Shown here: positions 31,887 through 58,337 of the stretch, one piece after another
Numbering within the stretch: the first letter of the stretch is position 1
Layout: the number at the start of each line of letters is the position of its first letter
Assembly: GCA_021824565.1 (NCBI GenBank)
Contig: JAKAKL010000116.1
Location: 62,001 to 126,000, forward strand
From: Bacteroidota bacterium
GTDB lineage: Bacteria > Bacteroidota > Ignavibacteria > Ignavibacteriales > Ignavibacteriaceae
DNA length: 64,000 nucleotides
Reading direction: 5' to 3'
The notes under the pieces: generated by a model
The model's input: the letters and a program-made list of their open reading frames with translations, nothing else
Told to the model about the DNA's origin: nothing
The model's database searches: none
Made by a program: the position numbers and the translations under genes

Positions 31887-34800
31887 TTACAATAAATTTT
31901 GAAGCAGCTTAAAAGATAAAAACCAATCCCATGAATTTTCCTTACCGATCCAGGCTTCGGCTGCGCCGATTGAGAAAGTGGACTCAAGATTGAACCAATG
32001 TTTAAATACAAAATTAATTTGACCGCCTGCATCACTCCATGTTTTAAGCTGGACGTTCTTACTAAATATATTCTCTGTATATACAGACATATCGATATAA
32101 TTTAGAAAATGTTCGCCGACTCCAATATTATCGAATCTTAGCGGCGGAAAATTTTCTTCAAGTAAAATTTTTACAAAGCCGTCGCTAAGCAGGCTGTAAA
32201 TCGGTATCCCGGGAAATCTAAAAACATCGCGGTATTGTTTTACATCCACATCTTCAAGAGGTCGATTTCCGAATCCTCCGAAATAAAAATGAGCTTGAGC
32301 AAGACTATCATTTTTATTTACATAACCTCCGGAAATTTTAAAATGAAAAATATTATGCGGAATAATAAAAGTGGAATAATTATCCCACTCCGCATAAGCA
32401 AGCTCGGCAAGCTGAATTTTGTTTTGCGAAGCTCCGTAGCCCAAAGCAGTGAAGTTGAATTCGTTGCCTTCTTCAAAATCAACGCTGCCGATGCTACGGC
32501 GAAGATTTTTAGAATTCAAGTTTGTCTGCACAATTGCAAAATCTGATTGCGAAACTTTTATCAGGTTATCGTTAATCGACTTTATGCCGCTGTAGTAATC
32601 GATTTGAGTTTTTTGTTTTATCTTCAAAGGATTATCATAAACCCAGTAGTAATTATCGGCAAGAGTTATTTTAGTTCCGATCATCCCCCTTTTCCTAGCG
32701 TTGAATAAGTCGTAAAAATCCGACGCATTATAATCCAAATCAAATTCAATTTCTTTTTTAAATTCATACTTTCCGCGAAAATGAAACTTGGGCAACCCTG
32801 AATTATCTTTAAATGGAGAATAACCAAATTCCATAGTCAAATTATGATAATAAATAGGATCAGCAATATGAGTATAAAAACCCAATACCTTTTCTGATTG
32901 AAAACCGGAAATAACAGGGACAAAAGTTTGAATCTTCAAATCGGAAACGCCATTATATCCTTTTTCTCTTAATGCACCCGATGAATCATTTTCTGTAGAA
33001 TCTGTCTTCAGCAGATAGTTTGCAAGCGAAGGATATTTATTTATTATTTGTTCGCCGAAATAATTTATTGCAGGTAATTGTTCAACAGGCTTGCTTGGAA
33101 TAATTACAGGCTGAAATCCTTCCGTGTTAAATTGAAAAGCAAACAAAGAATCTTCATTCAGCCAAATAGGTCTGAACAATCCAGTCAGAGTGTTCGATAA
33201 AACTTCGGTACTTGAGTCTGTTAAATCATATCGATAAATATTTGCGACGCCGTTGGTATATGCGTCCCAGTAAATAAATTTACCATCTCGGCTCCACGAT
33301 GGATTTTCCGGCGAGCCTTTATCGCTTATGGTCTTAAATTTAAATTTATCATTAGCTTCCAAACTGTCGCAGTTAACAAGAACAAGCGCCTGCACACCGC
33401 TTGCACGATGCAATACAGCAGCAAGATATTTTCCGGAAGGACTTACAGAAAGATTAAATAAATTATCTCCTTCATTAAAATTTATCAGCGCTTCCAATTT
33501 TTTATAAGGATAGGAAGAATACATCAACGAAGATCTTCCGGCATCATGCTGAACTCCCCATAATTCATGAGTCTCTCTTGAGACTGTAATATCACCGGTG
33601 CGGTAATCTTTAAACAATTCTTTCTTATCGCCGCTTTTTAAATCTATAACCCAGATATCTCTGTACAATTCATTATTGTTTGTCGTGTAAAAAAACAAAT
33701 CAAGGCTGTCATCCAGTGCGACCGAAGAAACCTGCAGAAGACTTGGAGTAGGCAATGTGCTAATATCATTTGAAACGGAATTATATAAATCCAGGCTTTG
33801 TATTGAAGCCAAATGACCGGGCATGTTATAGCCGAAATATATTTTGCCGTCATGCGAATTTAAAAATGGCTCGGTAACCCAGCCAAACTTTTCTGCTAAA
33901 ACTTTTTTTACCGGAGTAACCGGTGCAGATTCTATCTTCTCCAAATTCTTTTCCTGGAACTCTTTTTCTTCGATAATAAAACTTTGCCATTCTTTGTCTA
34001 AGCTATTATCGAAATATTCTTTCCATATTTTATCGGCTTCGCTCTTAAACGTTTTTTTGAACTTTGAAGTGTAGCTGTCGTAAAAATCCGAAGTCTCTGT
34101 ATTAAACCAGGAAATTACTTTGTCGGGTCCATATTTTAACGTCAAATAAGCAATAAATCTCTCTCCATAAAGATAGTAGATAGTTCCCAGCAGAAAAGAG
34201 GTTTCAGACAAATTCTCGAGATCATGAGGCGATGGAAAATAATTTCTTTCCAAAATAAGTGCTCTAAAATACATTTCATCAAAGCTGCCGAGGATTCTGC
34301 CGAACCCGCCGTTGAACCAAGTTTCCCAAAAGACCGCGATCGATTCCTGATGCCAGCGAGGCGTATAACGATTATAATTCGTAAGAAAGCTGTAAAGAAT
34401 TGTCAATGGATTAATTTGTTCAGGCTCTACTTTGCCAAACGCCGATCTAAAAAATTTCTCAACACCTGAAGCTTTATCATTAACAACAATATGCACCAGT
34501 TCATGGCTTAACGTCCATTGAATTTCATCATTATAAAGGAGGTTTTCATAACCGGTTTCAAACGGCTCTATTTCAAGTTGAATTTCATTTCGTGGAAGAG
34601 TAGTCGCGGCTCCGTAACCATAATCTGAAAAATCGTATGCGATTATTACTATCTTATGTGAAGGCGAATAACTAAATATTTTCATCAACGGCGTTAAAGC
34701 GTTTTCCGCCGAAAATAAAATGTGAGGAGCTAAGTATGAATACGAATCTTTGTAGATTAATTTGAAATGAGTACTTTCCACTTCGCACCATTTTGACTGA

Positions 34801-34910
34801 GCGTATGCAAACGCATTTAAGAAAAAAAATAAAACTAAAAATTGTATCCCCACCTTTTTACAAAGATTATAAAAAAAAAGCGGGAAAATTTTAGTCAAAA
34901 CACTTCTCAT
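31887..34910 (-). CDS. Exported HExxH metallopeptidase / TolB-like propeller / probable outer-membrane barrel protein
   Basis: A 1007-residue envelope protein. A signal peptide lies at about residues 20-38 (cleavage near FAYAQ). The peptidase-MA-like domain has HELVH at 136-140 and a likely third zinc ligand Glu in RWHQESIAVFWE near 189. The middle part (about 335-640) repeats WD/TolB-like beta-propeller blades (e.g. SPSGKYLAAV, SWSRDGKFIYWDAY). The C-terminal ~300 residues alternate polar and apolar residues and end in a short aromatic strand, as in BamA/surface-antigen barrels. The domain calls in the C-terminal part are inference. It heads a run with TPR and sensor genes. Confidence 0.75.
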   Translation of the reverse strand: MRSVLTKIFPLFFYNLCKKVGIQFLVLFFFLNAFAYAQSKWCEVESTHFKLIYKDSYSYLAPHILFSAENALTPLMKIFSYSPSHKIVIIAYDFSDYGYGAATTLPRNEIQLEIEPFETGYENLLYNDEIQWTLSHELVHIVVNDKASGVEKFFRSAFGKVEPEQINPLTILYSFLTNYNRYTPRWHQESIAVFWETWFNGGFGRILGSFDEMYFRALILERNYFPSPHDLENLSETSFLLGTIYYLYGERFIAYLTLKYGPDKVISWFNTETSDFYDSYTSKFKKTFKSEADKIWKEYFDNSLDKEWQSFIIEEKEFQEKNLEKIESAPVTPVKKVLAEKFGWVTEPFLNSHDGKIYFGYNMPGHLASIQSLDLYNSVSNDISTLPTPSLLQVSSVALDDSLDLFFYTTNNNELYRDIWVIDLKSGDKKELFKDYRTGDITVSRETHELWGVQHDAGRSSLMYSSYPYKKLEALINFNEGDNLFNLSVSPSGKYLAAVLHRASGVQALVLVNCDSLEANDKFKFKTISDKGSPENPSWSRDGKFIYWDAYTNGVANIYRYDLTDSSTEVLSNTLTGLFRPIWLNEDSLFAFQFNTEGFQPVIIPSKPVEQLPAINYFGEQIINKYPSLANYLLKTDSTENDSSGALREKGYNGVSDLKIQTFVPVISGFQSEKVLGFYTHIADPIYYHNLTMEFGYSPFKDNSGLPKFHFRGKYEFKKEIEFDLDYNASDFYDLFNARKRGMIGTKITLADNYYWVYDNPLKIKQKTQIDYYSGIKSINDNLIKVSQSDFAIVQTNLNSKNLRRSIGSVDFEEGNEFNFTALGYGASQNKIQLAELAYAEWDNYSTFIIPHNIFHFKISGGYVNKNDSLAQAHFYFGGFGNRPLEDVDVKQYRDVFRFPGIPIYSLLSDGFVKILLEENFPPLRFDNIGVGEHFLNYIDMSVYTENIFSKNVQLKTWSDAGGQINFVFKHWFNLESTFSIGAAEAWIGKENSWDWFLSFKLLQNLL

Positions 34911-38363: not shown

Positions 38364-40235
38364 TTAAGATGACTCTTCTATTTTTTCAAAAGACAGGATT
38401 ATTTTAGTTCCCTTATTTTTTTCGCTTTCAATATGAAAATCGCCTTTCATTAGTCTTGTTAACTGGTAGGCAATGGTAAGTCCTAAGCCGGCACCTTCGT
38501 AGCTTCGAATGTATGCGTCTTCCGCCTGAACGAATGGTTCAATAAGTTTTTTCAAATCTTTTTCTTCGATACCTTTCCCAGTATCAGCAATAATGATGTT
38601 TACTTTTTCTCCTTTAAGAGCTGAACTTAATGTAATGCTTCCTTCATCGGTATATTTTATTGCGTTGTCAACTAAAGATTCAACAATTTTTTCAAATTTA
38701 ATCCAGTCTGTTTTTATACTTAATTCTATTGTTTCTGTATCAAGAATAAAATTAAGATTTTTCTTTTCAGCTTCGGCATGTTTTTTCCCGTATATTGATT
38801 CGAGCACCTCGTTGCAATTCAGAGTAACCAAATCGAGTTCCACTTCGCCGGAATAAATTTGAGATACTTCGACAATGTTATTGAAAAGATTTAGTACGCG
38901 CGCCAGTACATCTTTGAACGATCCGATCAAATCTACCAATGCTTCTTGTTCGTTGTGCTGAAGGTATTCGTCAATTATTTCGGAATAGCCGACTATTGCG
39001 TTGAAAGGCGTTCGAATTTCATGCGACATATTCTCTAAAAATGCCGTCTTCATTTTGTTCAAACTATTTTCTTTCTCGTATGCACGCTTTAATTGTTCTT
39101 GATACAACATTTGATCCGTAATGTCCTGCATTGCGACAATATAAATGGATTCTTTTTCAAGCGTATCGTTTATCAAAGAAATTTTAACACTGTATTGACT
39201 TTTTTCAGGGCTAATAAAATTAAATTCAACGTTAGAAGTATTTCCAAAATCAAATTGTCGTATCTCGTTTATAATTTGATTGAACAGGCTGCCGTCAAGT
39301 ACTTCCTCAAGATTCTTCTTTAGCGCAGATATTTTATTTATCGAAAATATATTGCAAAAATTTTCGTTAGCATTTTCAAATAAATATTGTCCTTCTTTCT
39401 TCTTGAAAATAAAAAGCAGATCGGAAATATTATTTATAATAGACTTTAAACGTCTTTCTGACTTCTTGATGAAAAGGTTTTTTAGAATATAGTTTGTAAT
39501 GTCATTCGCAGTTAAAATAAAATTAAGGTTATCGTTTCCTTCAAGAAAAATCGGATTTAGCTTTAACTCTTCGTATAACGTATTTCCGTTTTCATCGCTG
39601 CAAGAAATAATTTTGGTCCAGATATTTACTTTGCTGATAGCTTCTTCAAGATTCTTCTTCTCTTCATTAGTAAGATAGAAAGAAAGCACATCAACTACGG
39701 ATTGATTATATATAATTTCAATTGCCTTATTCAAAATTTTTTCAAAGGAAGTAGTTGAATAAGTAACAACGCCGAAGGCGTTAGTAATAATTACAGGAAC
39801 ACCTCCGTATTCAAGTGCGTTGTGAAGATCATTTATTTTTCCCTCAAGCTGGTTTTTTTCTTTTAACGATTTAAAGACTAAAACAAAATATTCAATATCG
39901 CGGATAAAAATTCTTTCAGCCTGAACGCTAAAATCGCTGTAGTCAAGATTGTGTTCGGGTGAATAAAAAAGATCAAACTGCATATTGTTATAGTTGCTGC
40001 CTGCCAATAATAACAGCATGTTCCGCAAGTCCGGCTCGGAATTTAGATCAAAAAATTTATGGTTGTGGTAATATTTAAATATTTTCAGGAAAGAACTATT
40101 TGAAAAAATTATGCGGCATGCGGCATCGACAATAATAAGCGGATTGCTTTCAGCCATTTGATAAAGGTTCTCGAATTCTGAAATCGAGATGTAACTTTTT
40201 GGCTCTGTATTGCTGTTATCGTTTAATTCATTCAA
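38364..40235 (-). CDS. Triple-PAS sensor histidine kinase of the flagellar cluster
   Basis: A 623-residue soluble kinase. Three PAS-like domains are visible (about 25-125, 135-250, 262-375), then the DHp domain with H405 in NMSHEIRTPFN, and an intact ATPase domain: LVDNAIKYT (N box), IADTGKGIEE (G1), GAGLGLTIAY (G2). No receiver or membrane segment. It is the last gene of the flagellar supercluster and overlaps the preceding unknown gene by eight bases, implying coupled translation. Likely partners are the stand-alone receiver genes 1.4-3.6 kb upstream. Its signal is unknown. Confidence 0.9.
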   Translation of the reverse strand: MNELNDNSNTEPKSYISISEFENLYQMAESNPLIIVDAACRIIFSNSSFLKIFKYYHNHKFFDLNSEPDLRNMLLLLAGSNYNNMQFDLFYSPEHNLDYSDFSVQAERIFIRDIEYFVLVFKSLKEKNQLEGKINDLHNALEYGGVPVIITNAFGVVTYSTTSFEKILNKAIEIIYNQSVVDVLSFYLTNEEKKNLEEAISKVNIWTKIISCSDENGNTLYEELKLNPIFLEGNDNLNFILTANDITNYILKNLFIKKSERRLKSIINNISDLLFIFKKKEGQYLFENANENFCNIFSINKISALKKNLEEVLDGSLFNQIINEIRQFDFGNTSNVEFNFISPEKSQYSVKISLINDTLEKESIYIVAMQDITDQMLYQEQLKRAYEKENSLNKMKTAFLENMSHEIRTPFNAIVGYSEIIDEYLQHNEQEALVDLIGSFKDVLARVLNLFNNIVEVSQIYSGEVELDLVTLNCNEVLESIYGKKHAEAEKKNLNFILDTETIELSIKTDWIKFEKIVESLVDNAIKYTDEGSITLSSALKGEKVNIIIADTGKGIEEKDLKKLIEPFVQAEDAYIRSYEGAGLGLTIAYQLTRLMKGDFHIESEKNKGTKIILSFEKIEESS

Positions 40236-40887
40236 GATTGGTAACGCTTATTTTTTTTATTACAAGAAAATCACTGGAATTAGTTCTGTCTTTATCCCTG
40301 CTGACAATTTTAAAGTTCGCAAGCTTGTCAAGAAAAATAAAAATTTGATTATTCAACATGCTGAATTCTTTAATTATGCCGTTGATAATATCATTTACAA
40401 AGTTTTCAAGAACGAACTGGTCTTTAAATGTTATATCGCCGCCAATTCCAGAGTCCTGAACTCTTTGAAATAGTAAGTTCAGCGATGATAAATTTACTAT
40501 CAGCGGCTCTTGGCTGTAATTAATTTTTCCAACTTTCGAGGAAATATTGCTGATTATTTTCTTCCTGATTTTATTTTTCTCAAACTCTTTAATAACCAGG
40601 TAATCAAGAACTTCCATGCTGCTGAAGTCTGCCAGGCTGACTGTTATCTGGAATTCTATGTTAGAAAGAATAAAGTCAAGATATAGCTTTTCGTTCGCAA
40701 CATGTTTAAAATCTTTAAGCCTCCAATTAATTTGACTTACAAATTTTAATGACGGTGAAAAATCCACCGAATCATGAAAATCCATCCGGCGGGCAAAATT
40801 AATATTTAAATAATTGCCCGTTCCTGCCGTCTTGGAAGCCTTTTTATAATCACTTCCTGCCGATATGTTATCAATTTTATTTAGCAT
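40228..40887 (-). CDS. Unknown protein of the flagellar cluster, coupled to PAS kinase
   Basis: A 219-residue protein not recognised. No signal peptide, transmembrane segment or catalytic motif. The sequence mixes beta-rich and helical stretches (central LDFILSNIEFQITVSLADFSS, later VNDIINGIIKEFSMLNNQIFIFLDKL). The start follows an AGGAAACGGG-type ribosome site. Its end overlaps the PAS kinase start by eight bases, and the receiver-DHp gene is 50 bases upstream. Position suggests a regulatory or adaptor role in the same signalling set. This is inference only. Confidence 0.7.
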   Translation of the reverse strand: MLNKIDNISAGSDYKKASKTAGTGNYLNINFARRMDFHDSVDFSPSLKFVSQINWRLKDFKHVANEKLYLDFILSNIEFQITVSLADFSSMEVLDYLVIKEFEKNKIRKKIISNISSKVGKINYSQEPLIVNLSSLNLLFQRVQDSGIGGDITFKDQFVLENFVNDIINGIIKEFSMLNNQIFIFLDKLANFKIVSRDKDRTNSSDFLVIKKISVTNLE

Positions 40888-40937
40888 GCCCGTTTCCTCA
40901 TGCTATAATCGAAGAAAAGAAAAAAAAATTGAGGGCT

Positions 40938-41594
40938 TTATTCCAGCTTCAGCATTTTATTTTCAGAGGTATAGTCAATAATTTCGGGATTTTGCAGGTG
41001 AGTTAAGTCATTTATTAAAATTTTTATTCTTTCAATAGATTGAGCAATAATTTGAAAATCTTCGGCAAAAGCGTTTTTATTTTTGGCATTCATCTCATCT
41101 TCAATGTTTTTAATGGACACTACCAAACTGCTTAACGGGTTATTTATTTTATGCCCGATCGTACATGCCATTTCAATCAATGCTTTGCTGTGCTCAATTT
41201 TCTTCAGCTCATTTTGAAGATTATGGATCCTCATCCCCGACCTAATTCTTGCAAGAAGTTCCTGGTTTTGAACCGGCTTCACAAGAAAGTCATCGGCGCC
41301 AAGGTCCAGTCCGGCAACTCTATCTTTCAGCGAAGCTCTCGCGGTTAAAATTATAAAATAGACGTGTTTAAATCTTTCATCTTTTTTTATGTGGTTGCAA
41401 AGTTCTATGCCGCTCATAAAAGGCATTGTCCAGTCGGCGATTATAACATCGGGAATAACTTCCTGTTCAAGAAGCTTTAATGCTTCCTGACCGTTCGTAG
41501 CAGTATAAACTTCAAAATCATTTTTTGAAAGAAGTTTATCCAGAATAAAAAGAGTATCCTTATCGTCTTCAACTATTAATATTTTGTTTTTCAA
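40938..41594 (-). CDS. Response regulator fused to an orphan DHp (HisKA-like) domain
   Basis: A 218-residue protein. The receiver is complete: acidic pocket E9-D11, phospho-acceptor D54 in IIADWTMP, and K106 in FLVKP. After a short coiled segment there is a HisKA-like two-helix hairpin with H148 in TIGHKINNPLSSL and a second helix ending near residue 205. No HATPase domain follows; the stop comes after residue 218. It could serve as a histidine phosphotransfer module like Spo0B/ChpT-type DHp dimers, passing phosphate between its own receiver and others. It overlaps the upstream receiver gene by four bases. Confidence 0.85.
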   Translation of the reverse strand: MKNKILIVEDDKDTLFILDKLLSKNDFEVYTATNGQEALKLLEQEVIPDVIIADWTMPFMSGIELCNHIKKDERFKHVYFIILTARASLKDRVAGLDLGADDFLVKPVQNQELLARIRSGMRIHNLQNELKKIEHSKALIEMACTIGHKINNPLSSLVVSIKNIEDEMNAKNKNAFAEDFQIIAQSIERIKILINDLTHLQNPEIIDYTSENKMLKLE

Positions 41595-41983
41595 TTTTTA
41601 ATCTGCTCTTTAATAATGTTGATAAATAAATTGAAGTCAGTAATAGGCTTCGTAATTATTTTATCCGCTAAGTTTTCTTTAATAAAACTTTCTTCTTTTA
41701 TTTTGCCGGAATATGCAGTTACAATTATTATAGGAATACTATTAAATCTCGGATTGCACTTAATATACTTTGAAAATTTAACACCGTCCATTTTTTGATC
41801 ATCAAGATAAGTGTTCTTAAGACTAATGTCCATAATAATCAAATCAACATCCGTATCTCCAAGTAATTTCATAATCTCATTGCCGTCTTCCAAAATATAA
41901 AGATTGTAGCCGGCTTTCTTTAAAATATATTTATACAAAGTTATTGTAATGGGATCGTCTTCAATAATAAGAATACTTTTCAT
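41591..41983 (-). CDS. Single-domain response regulator
   Basis: A 130-residue CheY-like receiver with the acidic residues E8-D10, the phospho-acceptor D52 in LIIMDIS, the switch Thr in IIIVTAYS, and K112 in IITKP. There is a small insertion (KNTYLDDQKMDG) after the phosphorylation site, seen in some Bacteroidota receivers. No output domain. It overlaps motB1 upstream by four bases and the receiver-DHp gene downstream by four, so the three are translationally chained. It may act on the motor, like CheY, or be a phosphorelay intermediate. Confidence 0.9.
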   Translation of the reverse strand: MKSILIIEDDPITITLYKYILKKAGYNLYILEDGNEIMKLLGDTDVDLIIMDISLKNTYLDDQKMDGVKFSKYIKCNPRFNSIPIIIVTAYSGKIKEESFIKENLADKIITKPITDFNLFINIIKEQIKN

Positions 41984-42756
41984 TCGTTGCTGTCTAAGTA
42001 TTTAATAATAATGCTTATTCTTCTGTTTACAAAACTAAACGGATCTTTCGGGTCCCGCAGTTCTCTATCGGCGTAACCTCGAACTTGAAAAATATGGCTG
42101 TCCGGCAGGCTTCCCGACGTCAGCGCACGTCTCGCCGAGTTTGCTCTATCTGCGCTTAATTCAAAATTTGTATAACCGTTTGAGCCGCCTGAATAAGGGC
42201 GGGCGTCTGTATGCCCTTCTATGATAATTTTATTCGGCAGTTTTGCTAACTCGTCTCCAATCTTCTTAAGAAGTTCTTCTGCTTCTTTTGTAAGCTTTGC
42301 AGTGCCGATTTCGAAAAACAAATTTTTAGCAGCTTCTACCAGTTCTATTCTCAAGCCTTCTTTTACAAATTCAATTTTAATCTGCCCCATTAAGTTACTA
42401 AACTTTGAATCTCTTGATAAGTCACCAATTATTTCATCACCCATTTTCTTCAGCATTTCCATTTCTTTAGCGCGCGCTTCTTGAATCGAGATATCATTTG
42501 TTTTTACCAGCGAAGGAATTTCGCCCTGTAAAATATTCTGTCCTTTATTTGAAAAGCCGATAGGATTTTTAAAATAATTCGCAACTAATTTCCTAACGTC
42601 CTGGTCCTGACTCAAAACCCAAAGAACAATGAACAAAGCCATCATCGCAGTTACAAAATCTGCATACGCTACTTTCCATGCACCGCCATGATGCCCACCA
42701 TGGTTTTTTTTAATTTTCTTTACAATGCGCGGAGGAGAATCTGTTCCAAGAGACAT
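41980..42756 (-). CDS. motB: Stator protein MotB (first pair)
   Basis: A 258-residue stator subunit. One transmembrane helix carries the ion-binding Asp, D33 in KVAYADFVTAMMALFIVLW, and an OmpA-like peptidoglycan-binding domain (about 120-255) contains IIEGHTDARPYSGGSNGY and LSADRANSARRAL. A His/Gly-rich segment (NHGGHHGGAWK) precedes the helix. It is separated from motA by one base. Ion specificity (H+ or Na+) cannot be decided. It differs clearly from the second pair at 44985. Confidence 0.93.
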   Translation of the reverse strand: MSLGTDSPPRIVKKIKKNHGGHHGGAWKVAYADFVTAMMALFIVLWVLSQDQDVRKLVANYFKNPIGFSNKGQNILQGEIPSLVKTNDISIQEARAKEMEMLKKMGDEIIGDLSRDSKFSNLMGQIKIEFVKEGLRIELVEAAKNLFFEIGTAKLTKEAEELLKKIGDELAKLPNKIIIEGHTDARPYSGGSNGYTNFELSADRANSARRALTSGSLPDSHIFQVRGYADRELRDPKDPFSFVNRRISIIIKYLDSNE

Positions 42757-42757
42757 T

Positions 42758-43612
42758 TTAGCTCTTTCCTCTCACATAATTTTCAAGTTCGGTAAATGTC
42801 GGTCGCTCATCTGTAAAAATAGTTCTTCGCGCTATTTCAATTGCTATAATCGGAGGATTACCTTTGGCATAAGCTACGATGCAGGCTTTTATCGTATGAA
42901 GAACTCGCAATCTTGTTTCCATATTATGTTCAATATTTGATGCAAGAGGGTTCACAAAACCGTATGCAAGCAAAACTCCTAAAAATGTTCCTACCAAAGC
43001 GGCTGCTACATGGTGCCCTACAACCTCAGCGCCTTTGTCAATAGAAGCCATTGTTACAATTATTCCAAGGACTGCTGCTACAATTCCCAGGCCTGGCAAA
43101 GAATCGCCTACACGCGATAAAGCTGCCGGCACCGGTCTTGATTCCAATTCGTTTGTTTCAATTTCGGTATCTATTAATTCTTCAAGCTCATGCGGAGGAA
43201 CGCCGCCGGAAAGCATAACTTTCATCGTATCGGCGAAAAAATTCCTCGTAATATCATTATTAACAAACTTTTTATTCCCGGATAATATTTGACTTGTGCG
43301 CGGGTCTTCAATATGCTTTTCTACTGCCAAAAGCCCGTCCCTTTGAGCAACAAGAAATAATTCATTAAATGATTTTAGCAATTCTAAATAATCCTTTTTT
43401 GAATAGTTGTCCGGCTTCAAAGACTTTGGAATTTCTGCAAAAATTTTTTTAAGCAGACTCATCGGAGAAGCAATTAATAAACTCCCTACTGCTGCGCCTC
43501 CAATCGTGATTAGTTCCGCCCACTGTAAAAGCAATAAGAAATTTCCGCCGGCGATAAAAAAGCCGGTTACGATTGATAAGATTACTACAACAACTCCTAC
43601 TATTACGAACAT
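42758..43612 (-). CDS. motA: Stator protein MotA (first pair)
   Basis: A 284-residue, four-helix stator subunit that couples ion flow to rotor contact. N-terminal helices at about 1-20 and 27-50, a large cytoplasmic domain (about 55-165) with the charged rotor-interaction region, and C-terminal helices at about 170-195 and 200-225 (PGLGIVAAVLGIIVTM and AALVGTFLGVLLAYGFVNP, the family's conserved Pro-containing helices). The gene abuts motB1 and directly follows the receiver-Hpt gene. Length agrees with the E. coli-like longer MotA group. Confidence 0.93.
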   Translation of the reverse strand: MFVIVGVVVVILSIVTGFFIAGGNFLLLLQWAELITIGGAAVGSLLIASPMSLLKKIFAEIPKSLKPDNYSKKDYLELLKSFNELFLVAQRDGLLAVEKHIEDPRTSQILSGNKKFVNNDITRNFFADTMKVMLSGGVPPHELEELIDTEIETNELESRPVPAALSRVGDSLPGLGIVAAVLGIIVTMASIDKGAEVVGHHVAAALVGTFLGVLLAYGFVNPLASNIEHNMETRLRVLHTIKACIVAYAKGNPPIIAIEIARRTIFTDERPTFTELENYVRGKS

Positions 43613-44338
43613 TTACTTTTCCGATTCTTTATAATTTTTTTCGATTTCTTTAACTGCTACAAAAACCTGATCGCACATTACTCTAAGTTTTTCCCAATTT
43701 AAATATTTTCCTCCGAGCTGATCCTCAATTATACTTCCAAGCAAACTGAGATTTGGGTAACCAATTGTTCCGCCTATTCCTCTTATCTCATGCATAATAT
43801 TTTTTAACAACTCATGATCCGCTTCATCCAGCGCTTCCTTAATTATATTTTTTTTCTGGGGAAAGCTTGACAAAAAATAACCGCACAATTCTCTCTTAAT
43901 ATCCTTAACTTCTGTAGTTGAAAAAAGATTAGTCTTTTTCAATTTGTTTAAAAATTCTTCGCCTAAAACTTCCGAAACATTTTTCAGAATAATTTCTCTT
44001 TGAAGCGGCTTTGAAATAATTCTATCGGCTCCTGTTTCAATAGCAGCAACAACATTTGATCTGTTCGCATTTCCGCTGATGACTATTACGGGAATATCTT
44101 TTAAATTATCAAGCACTTTAATTACTTGCAGCATTTTTATGCCGTCGAAATTGGGCATCATAAGGTCAAGGAATATCAGCACAGGTTTATGAACTGCCGC
44201 CTTCTGAATCCCGTCTAATCCGTCGTGACTTATTAATATTTCCAGGTTGTAATTGCTGAAAAATGTTTTTAAAGTATGACAAATCAAATCAGAATCATCA
44301 ACAACAAGTATGAATACTTTTTCTTCCTTATGCTTCAT
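43613..44338 (-). CDS. Response regulator with C-terminal Hpt domain
   Basis: A 241-residue two-domain protein. The receiver (about 7-127) has D14-D15, phospho-acceptor D58 in LIFLDLMMPNFDG and K110 in IISKP. The C-terminal Hpt helix bundle (about 140-235) carries H183 in NIMHEIRGIGGTIGYPNL, matching the H-x-x-(K/R)-G-x(4)-G Hpt motif. Such a protein can both receive a phosphate and pass it to another receiver. Its start overlaps csrA by 11 bases and its stop abuts motA1, placing a phosphorelay component between the CsrA/FliW switch and a stator. Confidence 0.88.
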   Translation of the reverse strand: MKHKEEKVFILVVDDSDLICHTLKTFFSNYNLEILISHDGLDGIQKAAVHKPVLIFLDLMMPNFDGIKMLQVIKVLDNLKDIPVIVISGNANRSNVVAAIETGADRIISKPLQREIILKNVSEVLGEEFLNKLKKTNLFSTTEVKDIKRELCGYFLSSFPQKKNIIKEALDEADHELLKNIMHEIRGIGGTIGYPNLSLLGSIIEDQLGGKYLNWEKLRVMCDQVFVAVKEIEKNYKESEK

Positions 44339-44582
44339 TATTTAATTTTCTAATATTATTCACTTTGAGCTTTGTTAAGTCGCGAGGCTTATCAATGCTC
44401 TTTTGTACGGCTTCAATCGTTTCCTGCTTAACATTTTGATAAATCTCTCCGCGAAGGATCGTAACTTTATCAGGTGCCGAAATTCCTATCTTGACCTGTC
44501 CTTCAGAGATCGAAAGCACTTTTATTGTTATATCGGAATCGATTTTTATCTCTTCATCGATTTTCCTTGTTAATATCAACAT
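44328..44582 (-). CDS. csrA: Carbon storage regulator CsrA
   Basis: An 84-residue RNA-binding translational regulator. The N-terminal MLILTRKIDEEIKID and the RGEIYQNV RNA-contact region are characteristic, with a longer C-terminal tail than E. coli CsrA, as in species where FliW controls CsrA. CsrA typically represses flagellin translation by binding GGA sites. It lies 13 bases after fliW and overlaps the receiver-Hpt gene, so the switch is co-expressed with signalling and stator genes. Confidence 0.95.
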   Translation of the reverse strand: MLILTRKIDEEIKIDSDITIKVLSISEGQVKIGISAPDKVTILRGEIYQNVKQETIEAVQKSIDKPRDLTKLKVNNIRKLNNEA

Positions 44583-44595
44583 ATTTTTACCGCGC

Positions 44596-44979
44596 CTATC
44601 CTTCTTTAAATAAGTTATAATTTACCGGATACTTTTCGCTGTCCAGTATTTTCTGGAATCCTGTTTTCGTATTCTGATTAATATAAACAGGCGCCTTTAA
44701 ATTAACAGTTATTTTAATAATTTCTGAATTCATTGTTACTATGCCGAACGCTTCGCCATCATTTATCGAAGGATACTGGTCGTCAATTACTCTTATTCCG
44801 ATCATTGGAAAAGCAATTTCCGGCTCTTCAACTGAATTAAGCCAATAGAAAAAATCATCGTCAACTTTGATTAACAAATAATCCTTAAGGTTTTCAAAAC
44901 CGAAAATCCCGGATGGAAAATTAATTATCAGCGACTGATCGAATTCTAATTCGCCAAACTGTCTTGTATTTATTTTCAT
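44596..44979 (-). CDS. fliW: Flagellar assembly factor FliW
   Basis: A 127-residue protein. FliW binds CsrA and flagellin in a three-part homeostasis switch: free FliW inhibits CsrA, and unpolymerised flagellin releases CsrA again. The family features LIINFPSGIFGFENLKDYLL and the VNLKAPVYINQNTKTGFQ block near the C-terminus are visible. It is immediately upstream of csrA, the conserved arrangement. No flagellin gene lies in the window. Confidence 0.94.
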   Translation of the reverse strand: MKINTRQFGELEFDQSLIINFPSGIFGFENLKDYLLIKVDDDFFYWLNSVEEPEIAFPMIGIRVIDDQYPSINDGEAFGIVTMNSEIIKITVNLKAPVYINQNTKTGFQKILDSEKYPVNYNLFKEG

Positions 44980-44984
44980 AGCTC

Positions 44985-45800
44985 TTATTTGTTTATTATT
45001 ACAATATCTACTCTTCTATTAGTTGCCCTGCCGTCAGGCGTATCATTTGAAGCAAGCGGCTTATATTCAGAATATCCTACTATAGAAATTTTTTCAGGAT
45101 TTAGTCCTTCATTCTTTATTAAATAGTAGGCAGTATTCAAAGCTCTTGCGACCGACAAATGCCAATTTGAAGGAAACTCTGTAGTGTTTATCGGTACATC
45201 ATCAGTGTGTCCTTCAATTCTTATATCGTTCGGCAGTTCCTTTAATATCTGCGCCAATCTGCTTAATACCGTCGGCGATCCTCCTGTTAAATTTGCGCTG
45301 CCCGAAGAAAATAAAATATCATCAAGAATATGAATCGTTATTCCACGAGAATTCTGCTCCAGCCTTATGGAATTATTATAATTATATTTATTTATCAACT
45401 GTGTCAATTGGGATTTCAAAGTTACTTGCGGTGCCGAAACATTTTTTGTAACATTTGAATTCAACCCAATCACTTCTTTTCTGCTTCCGAAAATGTCTCC
45501 GGCTGCCGCAACAACCTTTTGATATTTGTGCGCATCAATATTAGAAATTGCATACAAAATAATAAAAAGCCCCAGCAAAAGAGTAATCAAATCTGCATAC
45601 GTAATTAAGTATCTGTCTTTATCGCCGCCTTCATGAAACGGCGACTCTTCAAAGTCTAAAGAGTCATCAGCCTTAATTGTTCTTTTTGCGGGAGCAGGCT
45701 TATTAGTCTTGCTTTGACTACCGATGGAATTTCCCCGCTCTGTAAGGCTAAAATACCTTCCAGCGAGATTTCCATCATATGTTTTTCTTCCATATGACAT
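44985..45800 (-). CDS. motB: Stator protein MotB (second pair), start overlaps motA2
   Basis: A 271-residue stator subunit with ion-binding D70 in LITYADLITLLLGLFIILYA and a C-terminal OmpA-like domain (about 140-270) including IEGHTDDVPINTTEFP and TNRRVDIVIINK. The N-terminal cytoplasmic part is about 65 residues, roughly 40 more than in E. coli MotB. The first 48 codons lie inside the 3' end of motA2 in another frame. No ATG, GTG or TTG occurs between the motA2 stop and the membrane helix except a TTG inside the helix, so the upstream ATG appears to be required. Confidence 0.9.
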   Translation of the reverse strand: MSYGRKTYDGNLAGRYFSLTERGNSIGSQSKTNKPAPAKRTIKADDSLDFEESPFHEGGDKDRYLITYADLITLLLGLFIILYAISNIDAHKYQKVVAAAGDIFGSRKEVIGLNSNVTKNVSAPQVTLKSQLTQLINKYNYNNSIRLEQNSRGITIHILDDILFSSGSANLTGGSPTVLSRLAQILKELPNDIRIEGHTDDVPINTTEFPSNWHLSVARALNTAYYLIKNEGLNPEKISIVGYSEYKPLASNDTPDGRATNRRVDIVIINK

Positions 45801-46435
45801 TTTTTTAGTTTATCGCCAATTGGTAACCATAAAATATTTGCACTAAATACTCCCCAAAGCGTAGCAATAAATGCCGATGCTATATTTTTTATTAAAGAAT
45901 TCGGATCTCCGCCGGCGTTTGCTAATGTCATTATCAAACCCATTACGGTACCGATTATTCCCATCGTAGGCGCATAGCCGCCCATCTTTGTGAATATAAA
46001 AATATTCGAGTAGTGCCTTTCCTGCATTGACTTTATTTCAAGCGATGCAAGAGATTGAAGCGAATCTGCATCAGTTCCGTCAATTGCATATCTTAATAAT
46101 TTTTGCGGGAAGACATAATCAAGTCTCTCAATTCTTTTTTCTATCGACAGGAGACCTTCTTTCCTCGATATTATCGAAAAATCTACAAAATTATTTATCA
46201 GTCTGTGCAGATTATATTTACTAGGAAAATATGCCAGCCTTATCAAACGCAAAATATTTCTAAACTTTTCAAAACCGAAACCAATAATCACTGTCGAAAA
46301 CGTTCCGCCAAAAACTATAATCAACGGAGGAATTAAAAATAGAGCGCTAAAAGTACCGCCTTCTAAAAAGAAAGCTCCGAATATTGAAAGTATTCCTAAA
46401 ATTAATCCGCCAATTGTACTGAATCTTCTTATCAT
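45656..46435 (-). CDS. motA: Stator protein MotA (second pair)
   Basis: A 259-residue four-helix stator subunit of the PomA/MotA type. Hydrophobic helices lie at about 7-25 and 30-52, with C-terminal helices at about 150-172 (GGYAPTMGIIGTVMGLIMTL) and 180-205 (IASAFIATLWGVFSANILWLPI). The C-terminal ISLEGILALQSGEIPSVVKA is a conserved family block, so the last 48 codons overlapping motB2 are real coding sequence. It overlaps the flgL stop by four bases. Confidence 0.92.
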   Translation of the reverse strand: MIRRFSTIGGLILGILSIFGAFFLEGGTFSALFLIPPLIIVFGGTFSTVIIGFGFEKFRNILRLIRLAYFPSKYNLHRLINNFVDFSIISRKEGLLSIEKRIERLDYVFPQKLLRYAIDGTDADSLQSLASLEIKSMQERHYSNIFIFTKMGGYAPTMGIIGTVMGLIMTLANAGGDPNSLIKNIASAFIATLWGVFSANILWLPIGDKLKKCHMEEKHMMEISLEGILALQSGEIPSVVKARLISLLPQKEQLRLMTL

Positions 46436-54212: not shown

Positions 54213-54638
54213 TTATCCCGGCATATAACAGTCTTCAAACCGAGTTACATTTGATTTAATCACAGGTTCGCCTTTTCTAAGCAATGCATTCAATCTCGAT
54301 TTAGCGGTTTGAGTCGACTTTACATTTAGTTTGAACAGCATCAACTCGATTTCTGTTTCGTGCAGTTCATGTTCCACAAGATCGTTTAGCTGAAGCGTAA
54401 GCGGATTAAAATTTTTTATGCGTGCAAGAAGCAGCTCTCCGATTTCCACAGCTACGGGCAGGCTTGCATAATAAACTTTGCTGTTTACTAATATCAGATA
54501 ATTTGAATTATTCTTTTCCAATATTTTTATCTGCACGATAGAATTTATCTTTGCTGCTTGATCATTCAATGATCTTACATCTTTCTTAGTAGTTTCATAA
54601 TTCTGAGCAGCATAGCTGTGGTATTTTTTGCTAAACAT
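54213..54638 (-). CDS. Small flagellar-cluster protein, possible FliK-like OB domain
   Basis: A 141-residue protein not firmly recognised. The central IQIKILEKNNSNYLILVNSK region and ASLPVAVEIGELLLARIKNF resemble the small beta-barrel segment found in the N-terminal half of some FliK hook-length proteins (a hydrophobic strand pair followed by LPLPVGQ-type and NPLTLQL pieces). There is no signal peptide and no C-terminal FliK hook-length domain. It sits between the unknown membrane protein gene and flgF. Function is unknown. Confidence 0.6.
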   Translation of the reverse strand: MFSKKYHSYAAQNYETTKKDVRSLNDQAAKINSIVQIKILEKNNSNYLILVNSKVYYASLPVAVEIGELLLARIKNFNPLTLQLNDLVEHELHETEIELMLFKLNVKSTQTAKSRLNALLRKGEPVIKSNVTRFEDCYMPG

Positions 54639-54641
54639 TTT

Positions 54642-55256
54642 TTAACGCATTCGTTTTAATTTTTGAGCCAGTAATATTTCTTCTTTTGAAATATTTAATT
54701 TCCTTGCGGAGTTAGAAACAGCATCATTAGTCAAATTATATGCTGGCGAACTATCAGCCAGTCTATTTCTAACGGAAGAAAGCTTACTATTTCCCTGGAT
54801 TTTTATTTTCTCTTCTCTTAATAATTTTATATTGTCTCTCAGATCGTTATCCGGCGGCTGCACCAATCTTAACTTTCTTCTTCTTATTAATATTATAATC
54901 ATTGCCAGGAATGAAGCTGATGATAGTATAGCGATCTTTAGTAAAGTATCATCAGAAATTGAAAGCTGCTTTTTCACTTCATCTAAAAATCCGGGCGAAC
55001 TTTGTAACTCGGCATTTGATGTAACATTTTGGATTTGAGAATCGGAAATGCTTTGAGATTGTTTCTGTTTTTCCCGAGCAGCGTTTATTTGAGCTACTAC
55101 CATCTGGCTAATATTAACGCTGTCCGTATCGGCAGCGACTGTATTTATCGAACTTGTATCAGCGCCGGCATCCGGTAGAACGTTTTCGTTAATGTTTTGG
55201 CAGAAGATTTCAGAAATACAAAAGACTGAAACAACTAAAAGAAAATTAAATTTCAT
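54642..55256 (-). CDS. Unknown exported/membrane protein of the flagellar cluster
   Basis: A 204-residue protein with a signal peptide (residues 1-19, ending EIFCQ), a polar periplasmic part rich in Ser, Asp and Gln, one transmembrane helix (about 103-123, LLKIAILSSASFLAMIIILI) and a basic cytoplasmic tail beginning RRRKLRL. The topology recalls FliO (short periplasmic part, one helix, basic tail), but I see no sequence motif to confirm this. It starts at the same base where the pseudokinase gene ends (one-base overlap). Function is unknown. Confidence 0.6.
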   Translation of the reverse strand: MKFNFLLVVSVFCISEIFCQNINENVLPDAGADTSSINTVAADTDSVNISQMVVAQINAAREKQKQSQSISDSQIQNVTSNAELQSSPGFLDEVKKQLSISDDTLLKIAILSSASFLAMIIILIRRRKLRLVQPPDNDLRDNIKLLREEKIKIQGNSKLSSVRNRLADSSPAYNLTNDAVSNSARKLNISKEEILLAQKLKRMR

Positions 55257-56566
55257 TAGCTAACCTTTCTTCTTAAAGGAAATAAAAGCTGTAAAATCGT
55301 ACCGGAGTTTCTATCAGAGTCAATGCTAACTTCTCCATGATGCTTGTCCACAAGGTTTTTAACAATCTTTAGGTTTAATTGTTTTGAGGTTTTTTGCCTC
55401 TCGTCTTCCGTCTCATTAATGTTGTTTGTGCAAAGAAATTTTATAATAATATTTCCGGTCTGGAACCTTGTTTGTATAATCAAACCAGCCGGCTTATTAT
55501 TCTTGTTAAAGAGGAATGAAAAAACATTTGTCATCATTTGAGTAAGCTCATTCGGATTGCTTAACATCGGCGGAATCTTTTCATCGAGATCTAAAATACA
55601 TTCATAATTATAATTCGTCAGCGTAGAGTTAACCATGTTATAAAAGCCTGACAGAATATTATTAATATTGCATGATTGAACTCTTGATTTTACATCGTTT
55701 GTACCGGAAAATTCTACAAGCCGGTTTACAACATCTTTTACTTTTTTTACCTGATGGAGAATTGTATCCACAATTTTTTCATCGTAAGAGGAATTGTCTT
55801 TCTTTAGAAATTCGGAATAACTCGCAATTACCTGCATAGGCGAAAGAATTTCATCCGCGATGCCGGTTGTAAGCTCTCCAATTGCAGACAGCTTGAAGTC
55901 GTTTGCAAGTTTTGACTGATATACTTGTAGTTCTTCATAAGCCGAAATAATTTCTTTCTGCTTCGTAATTGAATCAATTCTCCCCAGCAAACTCTGGAGC
56001 GCCAACTGAGATATAACAATTTCTGTTGAGTTTTCTTTCAATGAAGTTGAATTGGTAATAACAGAAAGTAAAACCTTTTTCTTCGATGCGCATACCGCAG
56101 GAATTAAGAAGCATGATGATGTTTTTAAATCGTTGTTTGAAACAATTTTCTCAGAAATAATTTTTACTCCGCCGTTCTTAAAAATTTCAGCAAGTATTTC
56201 AAACGTAGCTGACTTTCCAAGTATTTGTTTTGAGTTTGATGATACTTTATTATGAAAACCTTTCAAAGATTTTTGTTGTTCATCAAAAAGAAGTATATCC
56301 GCTTCTTTCACTTCAATTATATTTTTTAAAGTAGACTTGAATTCTCCTACGATCTGAACTAAATCATTTATGTTTTTAATTTTTTCGTTAAATGAATAGA
56401 TCAGCTTGGTCAGCTTGTTATATTTATTCTGATTTGAATTTTTATCGAAGCCGGGATTGTAATGAATCAGTTTCAGACCGCCGCCAGTTGTTCCGGTCCT
56501 TGTCATGTTCGGCAAAGATTTGTGGAAAGCTTCGTAGCTTAATGTATTTTGCTTTATAACTCTCAA
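55256..56566 (-). CDS. Degenerate histidine-kinase-like protein (pseudokinase) with GAF-like N-terminus
   Basis: A 436-residue cytosolic protein. The N-terminal GAF-like region is about 55-195. The DHp-like region (about 225-290) reads GELTTGIADEILSPMQVI, where the phospho-accepting His of the GIAHEI(N)NP box is D238. The ATPase-like domain keeps its fold pattern (KIVKNLVDKHHGEVSIDS and the final SGTILQLLFP) but the N box (TNVFSFLFNKN) and G1 (FLCTNNINET instead of DxGxG) are lost. It is probably not an active kinase, and more likely a scaffold or regulator. It overlaps the HDOD gene upstream by four bases. Confidence 0.85.
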   Translation of the reverse strand: MRVIKQNTLSYEAFHKSLPNMTRTGTTGGGLKLIHYNPGFDKNSNQNKYNKLTKLIYSFNEKIKNINDLVQIVGEFKSTLKNIIEVKEADILLFDEQQKSLKGFHNKVSSNSKQILGKSATFEILAEIFKNGGVKIISEKIVSNNDLKTSSCFLIPAVCASKKKVLLSVITNSTSLKENSTEIVISQLALQSLLGRIDSITKQKEIISAYEELQVYQSKLANDFKLSAIGELTTGIADEILSPMQVIASYSEFLKKDNSSYDEKIVDTILHQVKKVKDVVNRLVEFSGTNDVKSRVQSCNINNILSGFYNMVNSTLTNYNYECILDLDEKIPPMLSNPNELTQMMTNVFSFLFNKNNKPAGLIIQTRFQTGNIIIKFLCTNNINETEDERQKTSKQLNLKIVKNLVDKHHGEVSIDSDRNSGTILQLLFPLRRKVS

Positions 56567-57459
56567 CTCAAATACCTGACAGTTTCTGCTTGTTCAACAA
56601 ATAAGTCTTTATAATTTTCAATAAGTTTTTCAATCTGTTCAGTTTCTCTAAATCTTAATAGACCAATTTCAGAATCACTCAACTGAAGATTTTTATCCCA
56701 ATAACAATTTCCGATATTTAATTTTTCAGTCATGTAATCGGCTAAATGAATAATTGTTGCTAATGACTTACTGTCTTTTGAATCATTTGGATTATGATGA
56801 TAAAGAATTGCATCGCACAAAGTTTCCGGGAAGTTCCATTTGTCTGTCAAGTAATGACCAATCTGTTGATGACTCATACCAAGCACTTCCAGTTCAGCCT
56901 CGCTGTAGCTGACTCCTTTTTGATTAACAATGTTATAAACTTCAATAAAATCGGCGTGGAAGAAACGATGCATAATGGAAAAGCCGAAGTCATGCAGAAA
57001 CCCGCCGATAAAAGCTTCACCGCTGTTTGGGAAATCAAAATCTTCTGCAAGTCTTTTTGCGGCAGAACCGGTTAGATAAGAATGGAGCCAAAATTCTTTT
57101 TGACTAAGATATTGATCCGTCTTATTCTTAAAAGCTTCAACAATAGAAAGAACAGAAATAATATTTCTCAATTCGCTGTAGCCAAGCACAAGTATAGCGA
57201 AGTCAATTGTGGTAACTTTGCGCTGAAGCCCGTAAAGCGGAGAGTTGGCAATCGTCAGAATTTTTGTCACCAGTCCCTGGTCTCTGGATATAATGCTTGA
57301 CAACGCATGGCTATTTAAGGCAGGCTTGTCTAACATCTCCAAAGCTTCCTTAATTGCATTAGGAATCGGCGGAAGGTTATAAATATTCCGCAAGACTAAT
57401 TCTGTTCTTTCCCTTTTCTTTTGCTCTGTTAATTGAAATGCTGTCATAATTACTTTCAC
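56563..57459 (-). CDS. HDOD-domain protein (copy 2)
   Basis: A 298-residue protein made almost wholly of an HDOD domain, a variant of the HD phosphohydrolase fold without the full metal site, found in signalling proteins. Recognised by LPPIPNAIKEALEMLDKP, IISRDQGLVTKILTIANSP, GEAFIGGFLHDFGFSIM and HQQIGHYLTDKWNFPETLCDAI. It is clearly a tandem paralogue of the protein at 57459, overlapping its stop region by one base. HDOD proteins near flagellar genes often act in motility control, but the partner is unknown. Confidence 0.9.
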   Translation of the reverse strand: MKVIMTAFQLTEQKKRERTELVLRNIYNLPPIPNAIKEALEMLDKPALNSHALSSIISRDQGLVTKILTIANSPLYGLQRKVTTIDFAILVLGYSELRNIISVLSIVEAFKNKTDQYLSQKEFWLHSYLTGSAAKRLAEDFDFPNSGEAFIGGFLHDFGFSIMHRFFHADFIEVYNIVNQKGVSYSEAELEVLGMSHQQIGHYLTDKWNFPETLCDAILYHHNPNDSKDSKSLATIIHLADYMTEKLNIGNCYWDKNLQLSDSEIGLLRFRETEQIEKLIENYKDLFVEQAETVRYLS

Positions 57460-58337
57460 TAAAATATTATTGTTTCGTTTTGACTTTTTAAAAGTTCGCT
57501 GTAATTATCAATGAACCTTGTTAAATTTGTTTCGCTGCCGAAGTTTAGAATTTTAATAACGTTTTCATCTAGTTCCATATTATCATCCCAATAAAAGCCG
57601 CCGATATTGAGACGCTGCGTCATGTAATCAGCAAGATGAACTATAGAAGCCATAACTTTATTTTCTTCAGATAATGAAGGTTGGTGATGAAAACAAATTA
57701 CGTCTCCTAATGAGGCGGGAAGATTCCATCTGCTGATCAAGAATTTTCCAATCTCTTGATGCGTTAAACCTAATATTTGTTCTTCCGCCTTTATATATCT
57801 CATCTGCTGACTGTCTACAAGATTATTTATAGAATTAAATTCTTTATTAAAATATCTTTGAATGATGGAAATGCCGAGATCATGAAGCAGACCAGCAGTA
57901 AAAGCTTCGCCGGACTTGGGAAAGTATAAATCGTCGGCAATTCGTTTAGCAGTTGCAGCTGTAATAATTGAATGGTTCCAGTAAGCTTTGCTGTCCCAAT
58001 CTTTCATCCCATCTTTTTTAAATGCTTCAATCATTGAGAGAGCGATTACAATATTTTTTATATGCTCAAAGCCAAGGATTACAATTGCAAATTCTATCGT
58101 TGATACTCTCCTAGGCAGTCCATAGAGAGGAGAATTTGCTACTGTCAATATTTTTGCAACCAGCCCCTGGTCTTTGCTTATCATTCTTCCAAGCTCTGTA
58201 GCGCTGGTGTTCGGATTATTCAACAGCTTGGAAACTTCAAACATTACAATCGGAATTGACGGCAGGTTTCTTATGCTTGATAATAATCTGATATAGATTT
58301 TTTTCTCGTTAATATTTTCCACATTACCATTATTCAT
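57459..58337 (-). CDS. HDOD-domain protein (copy 1)
   Basis: A 292-residue HDOD protein closely similar along its length to the one downstream (shared LVAKILTVANSPLYGLPRRV, GEAFTAGLLHDLGISIIQRY and HQEIGKFLISRWNLPASLGD). No additional EAL, GGDEF or receiver domain. It overlaps the sigma-28 gene by eight bases, so sigma-28 and the two HDOD proteins are expected to be produced together. The pair probably arose by local duplication. Confidence 0.9.
   Translation of the reverse strand: MNNGNVENINEKKIYIRLLSSIRNLPSIPIVMFEVSKLLNNPNTSATELGRMISKDQGLVAKILTVANSPLYGLPRRVSTIEFAIVILGFEHIKNIVIALSMIEAFKKDGMKDWDSKAYWNHSIITAATAKRIADDLYFPKSGEAFTAGLLHDLGISIIQRYFNKEFNSINNLVDSQQMRYIKAEEQILGLTHQEIGKFLISRWNLPASLGDVICFHHQPSLSEENKVMASIVHLADYMTQRLNIGGFYWDDNMELDENVIKILNFGSETNLTRFIDNYSELLKSQNETIIF

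Follow-up and report, generated by a model that had tools for sequence, protein, structure and literature searches.

A run of seven genes in an Ignavibacteriaceae bacterium (Bacteroidota; assembly GCA_021824565.1, contig JAKAKL010000116.1) may encode a cytoplasmic phosphorelay dedicated to one flagellar stator, MotA1/MotB1. The genes lie 3' of csrA within a 64,000-nucleotide stretch of the contig (positions 62,001 to 126,000; hereafter, “the window”), at a locus that holds two complete motA/motB pairs. The conserved gene run suggests that phosphate signalling controls the MotA1B1 power unit, and we give a relay dedicated to this stator close to an even chance of being correct. Control of MotA1B1 is the leading, best-supported reading, with CheY-like action on the rotor switch as its main rival. 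We also propose, somewhat more tentatively, that in most families of the class Ignavibacteria a MotA1B1-type stator has its own response regulator, and that the Ignavibacteriales have a full relay that uses phosphorylation to engage one stator pair or let it go. An earlier reading of the window from its sequence alone (the sequence-only reading) had suggested a relay devoted to stator choice or engagement; a conserved relay module and a regulator tied to the stator in most class families sampled speak for this idea, whereas the order of phosphate transfer, its target and the choice between the two stators are what we infer from the genes.

The seven genes run head to tail as follows, where REC is a receiver domain, Hpt a histidine phosphotransfer domain, DHp a dimerization and histidine phosphotransfer domain, and U219 a protein of 219 amino acids (aa):

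43613..44338, minus strand: REC-Hpt protein, 241 aa, with D58, K110 and H183 (Pfam Response_reg and Hpt)
42758..43612, minus strand: motA1, stator A subunit (Pfam MotA_N/MotA_ExbB; NCBIfam TIGR03818, MotA1, above cut-off)
41980..42756, minus strand: motB1, stator B subunit, with D33 (Pfam MotB_plug and OmpA)
41591..41983, minus strand: lone CheY-like receiver, 130 aa, with D52 and K112 (Pfam Response_reg)
40938..41594, minus strand: REC-DHp protein, with D54, H148, N152 and tail residues Y208/M214 (Pfam Response_reg and HisKA, without HATPase)
40228..40887, minus strand: U219 (without Pfam or NCBIfam match)
38364..40235, minus strand: soluble PAS-HisKA-HATPase kinase, with H405, E406 and T409 (Pfam PAS, HisKA and HATPase)

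Genes, strand and coordinates agree with the sequence-only reading, as do its phospho-residues H405, D52, D54, D58 and H183, to which H148 of REC-DHp has to be added. Its account of tight joins holds for overlaps and abutments of -11 to +1 bases (csrA/REC-Hpt -11, REC-Hpt/motA1 0, motA1/motB1 +1, motB1/lone receiver -4, lone receiver/REC-DHp -4, U219/kinase -8), but REC-DHp and U219 are 50 bases apart; beyond the kinase, at a distance of 174 bases, lies a gene for a UPF0182 protein. The kinase had been described as triple-PAS: PAS_9 (two stretches) and PAS exceed the Pfam cut-offs, while the third PAS region falls below them. The locus holds the genes of a His-Asp phosphorelay (kinase, receivers and histidine phosphotransfer domain) with their phospho-sites intact. 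A hydropathy search found no membrane segment in the relay proteins, the kinase having no transmembrane peak. As had been claimed, no CheA, CheW, CheB or chemoreceptor occurs among the 29 window proteins, a subset of its open reading frames (ORFs), that were scanned against Pfam.

The gene order also occurs in other genomes, a check that the sequence-only reading had proposed, and is kept across the Ignavibacteriales, an order of free-living bacteria. We assembled 40 loci from relatives, 38 more (L084-L121) and 16 further stretches; removing 22 duplicates from these 94 left 72 loci of the order. All seven genes are present and collinear in 48 of the 72, spanning 5.3-6.3 kb, and contig ends cut another ten (L052, L053, L054, L057, L088, L093, L107, L115, L119, L120). 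The remaining 14 deviate or are split. In genomes G040 and G042, U219 and the kinase are still paired, 31-33 kb away (L055/L056 with L300/L301; four rows). Four loci are without an orthologue-level kinase (L074, L076, L078 and L305, in G032, G049, G030 and G384), one lacks the lone receiver (L075, in G024), and in L083 (G035) REC-DHp sits immediately behind motB1; L311, a stretch chosen on a weak lead, has none of the seven genes, and three further deviations are taken up below. Most of the proteins share roughly 40-90% identity with those of the window, falling to about 20-30% at the lowest for U219, across three families. Since the order recurs in three families at these identities, it is not due to chance.

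The relay also keeps company with flagella. A strong REC-Hpt match (E < 1e-45) was found in 39 of 40 FHIPEP-positive relatives, G035 being the sole exception, and in 0 of 19 FHIPEP-negative ones; G011, an 89%-complete metagenome-assembled genome (MAG) with no FHIPEP, has U219 nonetheless. A scan of a species collection for REC-DHp returned at least 38 loci at 54-81% identity, whose titles name Ignavibacteria, Ignavibacteriales, Melioribacteraceae, Melioribacter, Stygiobacter, Ignavibacterium, Chlorobiaceae, or merely Bacteroidetes, Bacteroidota, bacterium and similar. Among the matches listed, identity beyond those loci is at most 43% and mostly concerns the receiver part alone. One contig carries motB1 and the lone receiver as a single 408-aa ORF (L107:190-1413). 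We rejected this fusion as proof of contact between the two, because it is probably a sequencing error: it occurs on one contig with a title coverage of 3.8, motB1 and the receiver gene frequently share a few bases, and the C-terminus of MotB is periplasmic.

The residues expected to carry phosphate are nearly invariant in the order alignments. In REC-Hpt, D58, S88 and K110 are present in 63/63 sequences and H183 in 62/62 plus one gap; D52 of the lone receiver is kept in 62/62, and D33 of motB1 in 63/63 plus one gap. REC-DHp, aligned without five rows that are not REC-DHp (L052, L054, L057, L077, L079), keeps D54 in 64/64 plus one gap and K106, H148, N152, P153, Y208 and M214 in 65/65. For the kinase the counts are 56/58 for H405, 58/58 for both E406 and T409, and 57/57 for N524.

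REC-DHp differs from a HisKA kinase. In HisKA proteins, kinase activity depends on an acidic residue beside the His that phosphatase activity can do without, and the reverse holds for a Thr/Asn (abstract of PMC3510030). REC-DHp has no HATPase domain, and the residue after H148 is K in 46 sequences (the window protein included), Q in 11, N in 6 and an acidic E in just 2 of 65, so that the protein should not be a kinase; Asn stands at +4 of the His in all 65. It should instead be a phosphotransfer or phosphatase module, a prediction from domain content and alignment. Its AlphaFold2 model (predicted local distance difference test score, pLDDT, 85.1; predicted template modelling score 0.66) consists of a receiver, a long helix (110-167) bearing H148, a helix at 177-198 and a tail of two short strands (204-207, 213-216) near Y208 and M214.

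U219 is confined to the order: its profile matched 27 of 395 phylum genomes, all of them within it. The window protein matches nothing in Pfam or NCBIfam, and 35 members searched against Pfam gave just scattered weak matches, the best at E 0.0026 (DUF5804, 2 members). In the AlphaFold2 model (pLDDT 79.7), residues 1-40 are disordered and 41-219 folded and mostly confident. A Foldseek search of the model against the PDB gave nothing at E <= 0.001, the best hit being C1QBP at 0.033, and the best VIA-align result was Mam33 (Z 5.7, root-mean-square deviation 4.3, 109 residues aligned), in a range that the tool rates as common. With scores this weak, we assign no fold to U219.

The kinase departs from this constancy. 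No orthologue-level kinase was found in G030, G032, G049, G384 or G035. A different or strongly diverged kinase occupies its position in G030 and G384; the stand-in of G384, 640 aa long and 27% identical, may be a diverged orthologue. The phospho-accepting His is replaced by I or S in genus g13 (L332 = G726; L075/L121 = G024) and in L119, and these His-less kinases retain their ATP-binding residues. Where the lone receiver is missing behind motB1 (G024 and G726 of g13, whose losses count as one event, and G035), the kinase either is without its His or is not matched at orthologue level. These natural losses agree in part with the proposed relay.

Outside the order, the stator again appears with a response regulator. 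Of 245 class genomes sampled, 78 have a TIGR03818 match above cut-off. We examined 50 unique motA1 loci from beyond the order, a choice that leans to the best-scoring. A receiver protein with a degenerate HD domain (REC-HD) follows motB1 in 38 of the 50, representing 11 of 12 families (G396, G546 and G554 included), mostly at a distance of -85 to +69 bases. It is about 390-400 aa long where complete. Pfam recognises Response_reg and HD_5 in six tested proteins, and HD_5 without a recognised receiver in two others tested; the catalytic HD pair of HD-GYP proteins is found in 0 of 27 aligned sequences (16 HE, 11 other), and the receiver Asp is kept in 26 of 27. In G140, G280 and G528 each of two fetched stator copies is followed by its own regulator (6/6, with a third G528 fragment left out), and in families f9, f11, f63 and f64 the stator-regulator trio stands in a fetched stretch without a flgK, fliW or csrA match. 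As a control, in the phylum of G573, an Acidobacteriaceae MAG, a receiver gene occupies that position in 2 or 3 of 18 loci. A regulator bound to MotA1B1 by gene order, across families and extra copies, would be best explained by action on that stator or where it meets the rotor.

One locus of another family, L237 of G280, holds most of the relay, in the order csrA, REC-Hpt, motA1, motB1, REC-HD, PAS-HisKA-HATPase-REC and lone REC. Its REC-Hpt and lone receiver fall with those of the order in trees (supports 1.0 and 0.993), and among the remaining long loci from beyond the order, none had a REC-Hpt labelled ahead of motA1. From these comparisons, a response regulator tied to a MotA1B1-type stator is apparently widespread in the class, and the relay is its Ignavibacteriales version. 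As an observation in its own right, the degenerate-HD receiver proteins of L221-L258 (e.g., L227:10038-11231) form a pseudo-HD-GYP-like family apparently dedicated to the stator. REC-DHp was considered as a domain-swapped descendant of REC-HD, and this was rejected because the receiver tree did not join them. A kinase/regulator pair adjoining the f8 stator, considered as a counterpart of the relay, is in L223 an OmpR-type transcriptional pair in divergent orientation; the neighbouring pair of L258 (f8) resembles it by look.

In the mechanism that we propose, the PAS kinase (or another kinase) would autophosphorylate at H405 and feed the receivers at D58 and D54, and the Hpt (H183) and DHp (H148) domains would hand the phosphate to D52 of the lone receiver, or drain it. 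The lone receiver would bind MotA1 on its cytoplasmic side, or bind where rotor and stator meet, and set the engagement of MotA1B1 relative to MotA2B2. REC-DHp would be the transfer or phosphatase element of the relay, U219 would partner the kinase, and in the sister families REC-HD would replace the regulator behind motB1.

Several observations weigh against a relay dedicated to MotA1B1. The tie to the stator is one of gene neighbourhood alone, and all of the order loci that extend more than 3 kb upstream (61 of 61) have both stator pairs, so that no natural loss probes stator choice. Parts of the relay can be missing or displaced: L077 and L079 (G038 and G046) lack REC-DHp, REC-DHp is not followed by U219 in L118, the REC-Hpt gene of G056 carries interrupting stops, and REC-Hpt paralogues without a stator gene in the fetched stretch occur in G023, G040, G042 and G044. 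The kinase is the most variable part; being variable, exchangeable or lost, it makes one closed local circuit too strong a picture, and other kinases may feed the relay. Ten of the 12 class loci without the regulator come from a single genus of family f8, which has the stator pair without it (in the other two, G079 has no regulator nearby and no motB1 was found in G211), and the separation of REC-DHp from REC-HD in the receiver tree makes them equivalent in position only. Finally, in the tree the lone receiver stands nearest to the two CheY-like receivers of its own genome (support 0.88). By gene content the relay is non-Che, as the sequence-only reading had it, but this grouping leaves room for CheA input. 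The genome's chemotaxis genes are on other contigs: CheW domains lie at two places on C20, with one CheB and two lone receivers nearby, and at one place on C49.

The same grouping favours the main rival, in which the rotor switch has a second input: the lone receiver would bind FliM/FliN in the manner of CheY and bias the motor's rotation or its speed, with the PAS kinase and perhaps CheA feeding it, and the stator genes would merely be co-transcribed. FliM-binding CheY-like proteins outside the classic pathway are known (Cle; excerpts of PMC5677366), and 5 of the 6 species in genus g13 have no CheW, among them G024 and G726, which also lack the lone receiver. G035, however, has 9 CheW matches and no lone receiver behind motB1, and the class regulator accompanies extra stator copies and stators distant from other flagellar genes; we consider this rival unlikely, though a serious contender. 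A tie between loss of the lone receiver and loss of chemotaxis was itself dropped, as it fits genus g13 and fails in G035.

In a different account, the relay would sense motor completion as a checkpoint on flagellar assembly or expression and act through CsrA/FliW or other regulators. The relay genes do come after fliW-csrA within a single flagellar gene run, but Pfam finds no DNA- or RNA-binding output domain in the relay proteins, REC-Hpt and the lone receiver appear only in G280 among the sister families, and U219 turned up in the order alone; we judge a checkpoint improbable. The link to CsrA/FliW drawn in the sequence-only reading is not specific, because fliW-csrA stands at the same place in sister families lacking the relay; as shared flagellar neighbours, these genes lend no specific support to a stator relay. 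Very improbable, in our estimate, is a relay for general lifestyle that shares no more than its expression with flagella and has its output elsewhere: orphan REC-Hpt paralogues away from stators and the exchangeable kinase would fit it, but REC-Hpt co-occurs tightly with flagella and a regulator lies immediately behind motB1 in most class families sampled. Two of the four orphan REC-Hpt stretches (L334, L335, L336, L337) adjoin, by eye, apparent cytochrome bd oxidase genes.

The Spo0F-Spo0B step of sporulation pairs a receiver with a histidine phosphotransferase of the DHp type that lacks autophosphorylation. REC-DHp resembles the two joined together, and differs in being a fusion, in its output and in lacking any ATPase-like domain. 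The P. aeruginosa MotAB/MotCD system likewise has two stator pairs and a soluble regulator, FlgZ, that uncouples one of them; FlgZ responds to cyclic di-GMP (c-di-GMP), whereas the candidate regulators here are receivers of a His-Asp relay encoded with the stator (excerpts of PMC9039648). Caulobacter Cle proteins are also CheY-like receivers outside chemotaxis that tune the motor, but they act at FliM, and c-di-GMP activates them without phosphorylation, unlike the relay with its nearly invariant phospho-sites (PMC5677366). In Caulobacter HmrABCX, a hybrid kinase and putative Hpt proteins influence motility; that system is proposed to shift the share of flagellated and holdfast cells, HmrA is a membrane protein, and the excerpted account mentions no stator operon (PMC11481889).

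Searches limited to open-licence PMC papers brought up no description of this operon, and the available text of a 2025 paper on MotAB evolution contains neither “ignavibacteri” nor “response regulator”. A review of dual-stator systems, in the part available, raises the question of how the choice of stator is controlled and anticipates additional mechanisms; the binding regulators that it names, FlgZ, MotI and YcgR, respond to c-di-GMP, and EpsE need not (PMC9039648). If our reading is right, the relay would be a phosphorelay counterpart of c-di-GMP stator control. Comparative genomics singles out specific candidate proteins and residues, and the order includes a motile species that has been described, Melioribacter roseus, which makes the question directly testable. 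Two protein families are described here as well: REC-DHp, which lacks an ATPase domain and has invariant residues in its tail, and the unannotated U219.

Upstream, the neighbours leading into the relay run are, in order, flgK-flgL-motA2-motB2-fliW-csrA, of which the last four are:

45656..46435, minus strand: motA2, second stator A subunit (NCBIfam scan)
44985..45800, minus strand: motB2, second stator B subunit (top NCBIfam score MotD, under cut-off)
44596..44979, minus strand: fliW (Pfam FliW)
44328..44582, minus strand: csrA (Pfam CsrA)

Elsewhere in the window, the flagellar cluster contains two neighbouring HDOD-domain proteins (56563-58337) and two proteins of 141 aa and 204 aa without Pfam match (54213-55256). 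A 1007-aa protein without Pfam match (31887-34910) adjoins a TPR protein and a GAF-HATPase protein lacking a HisKA match.

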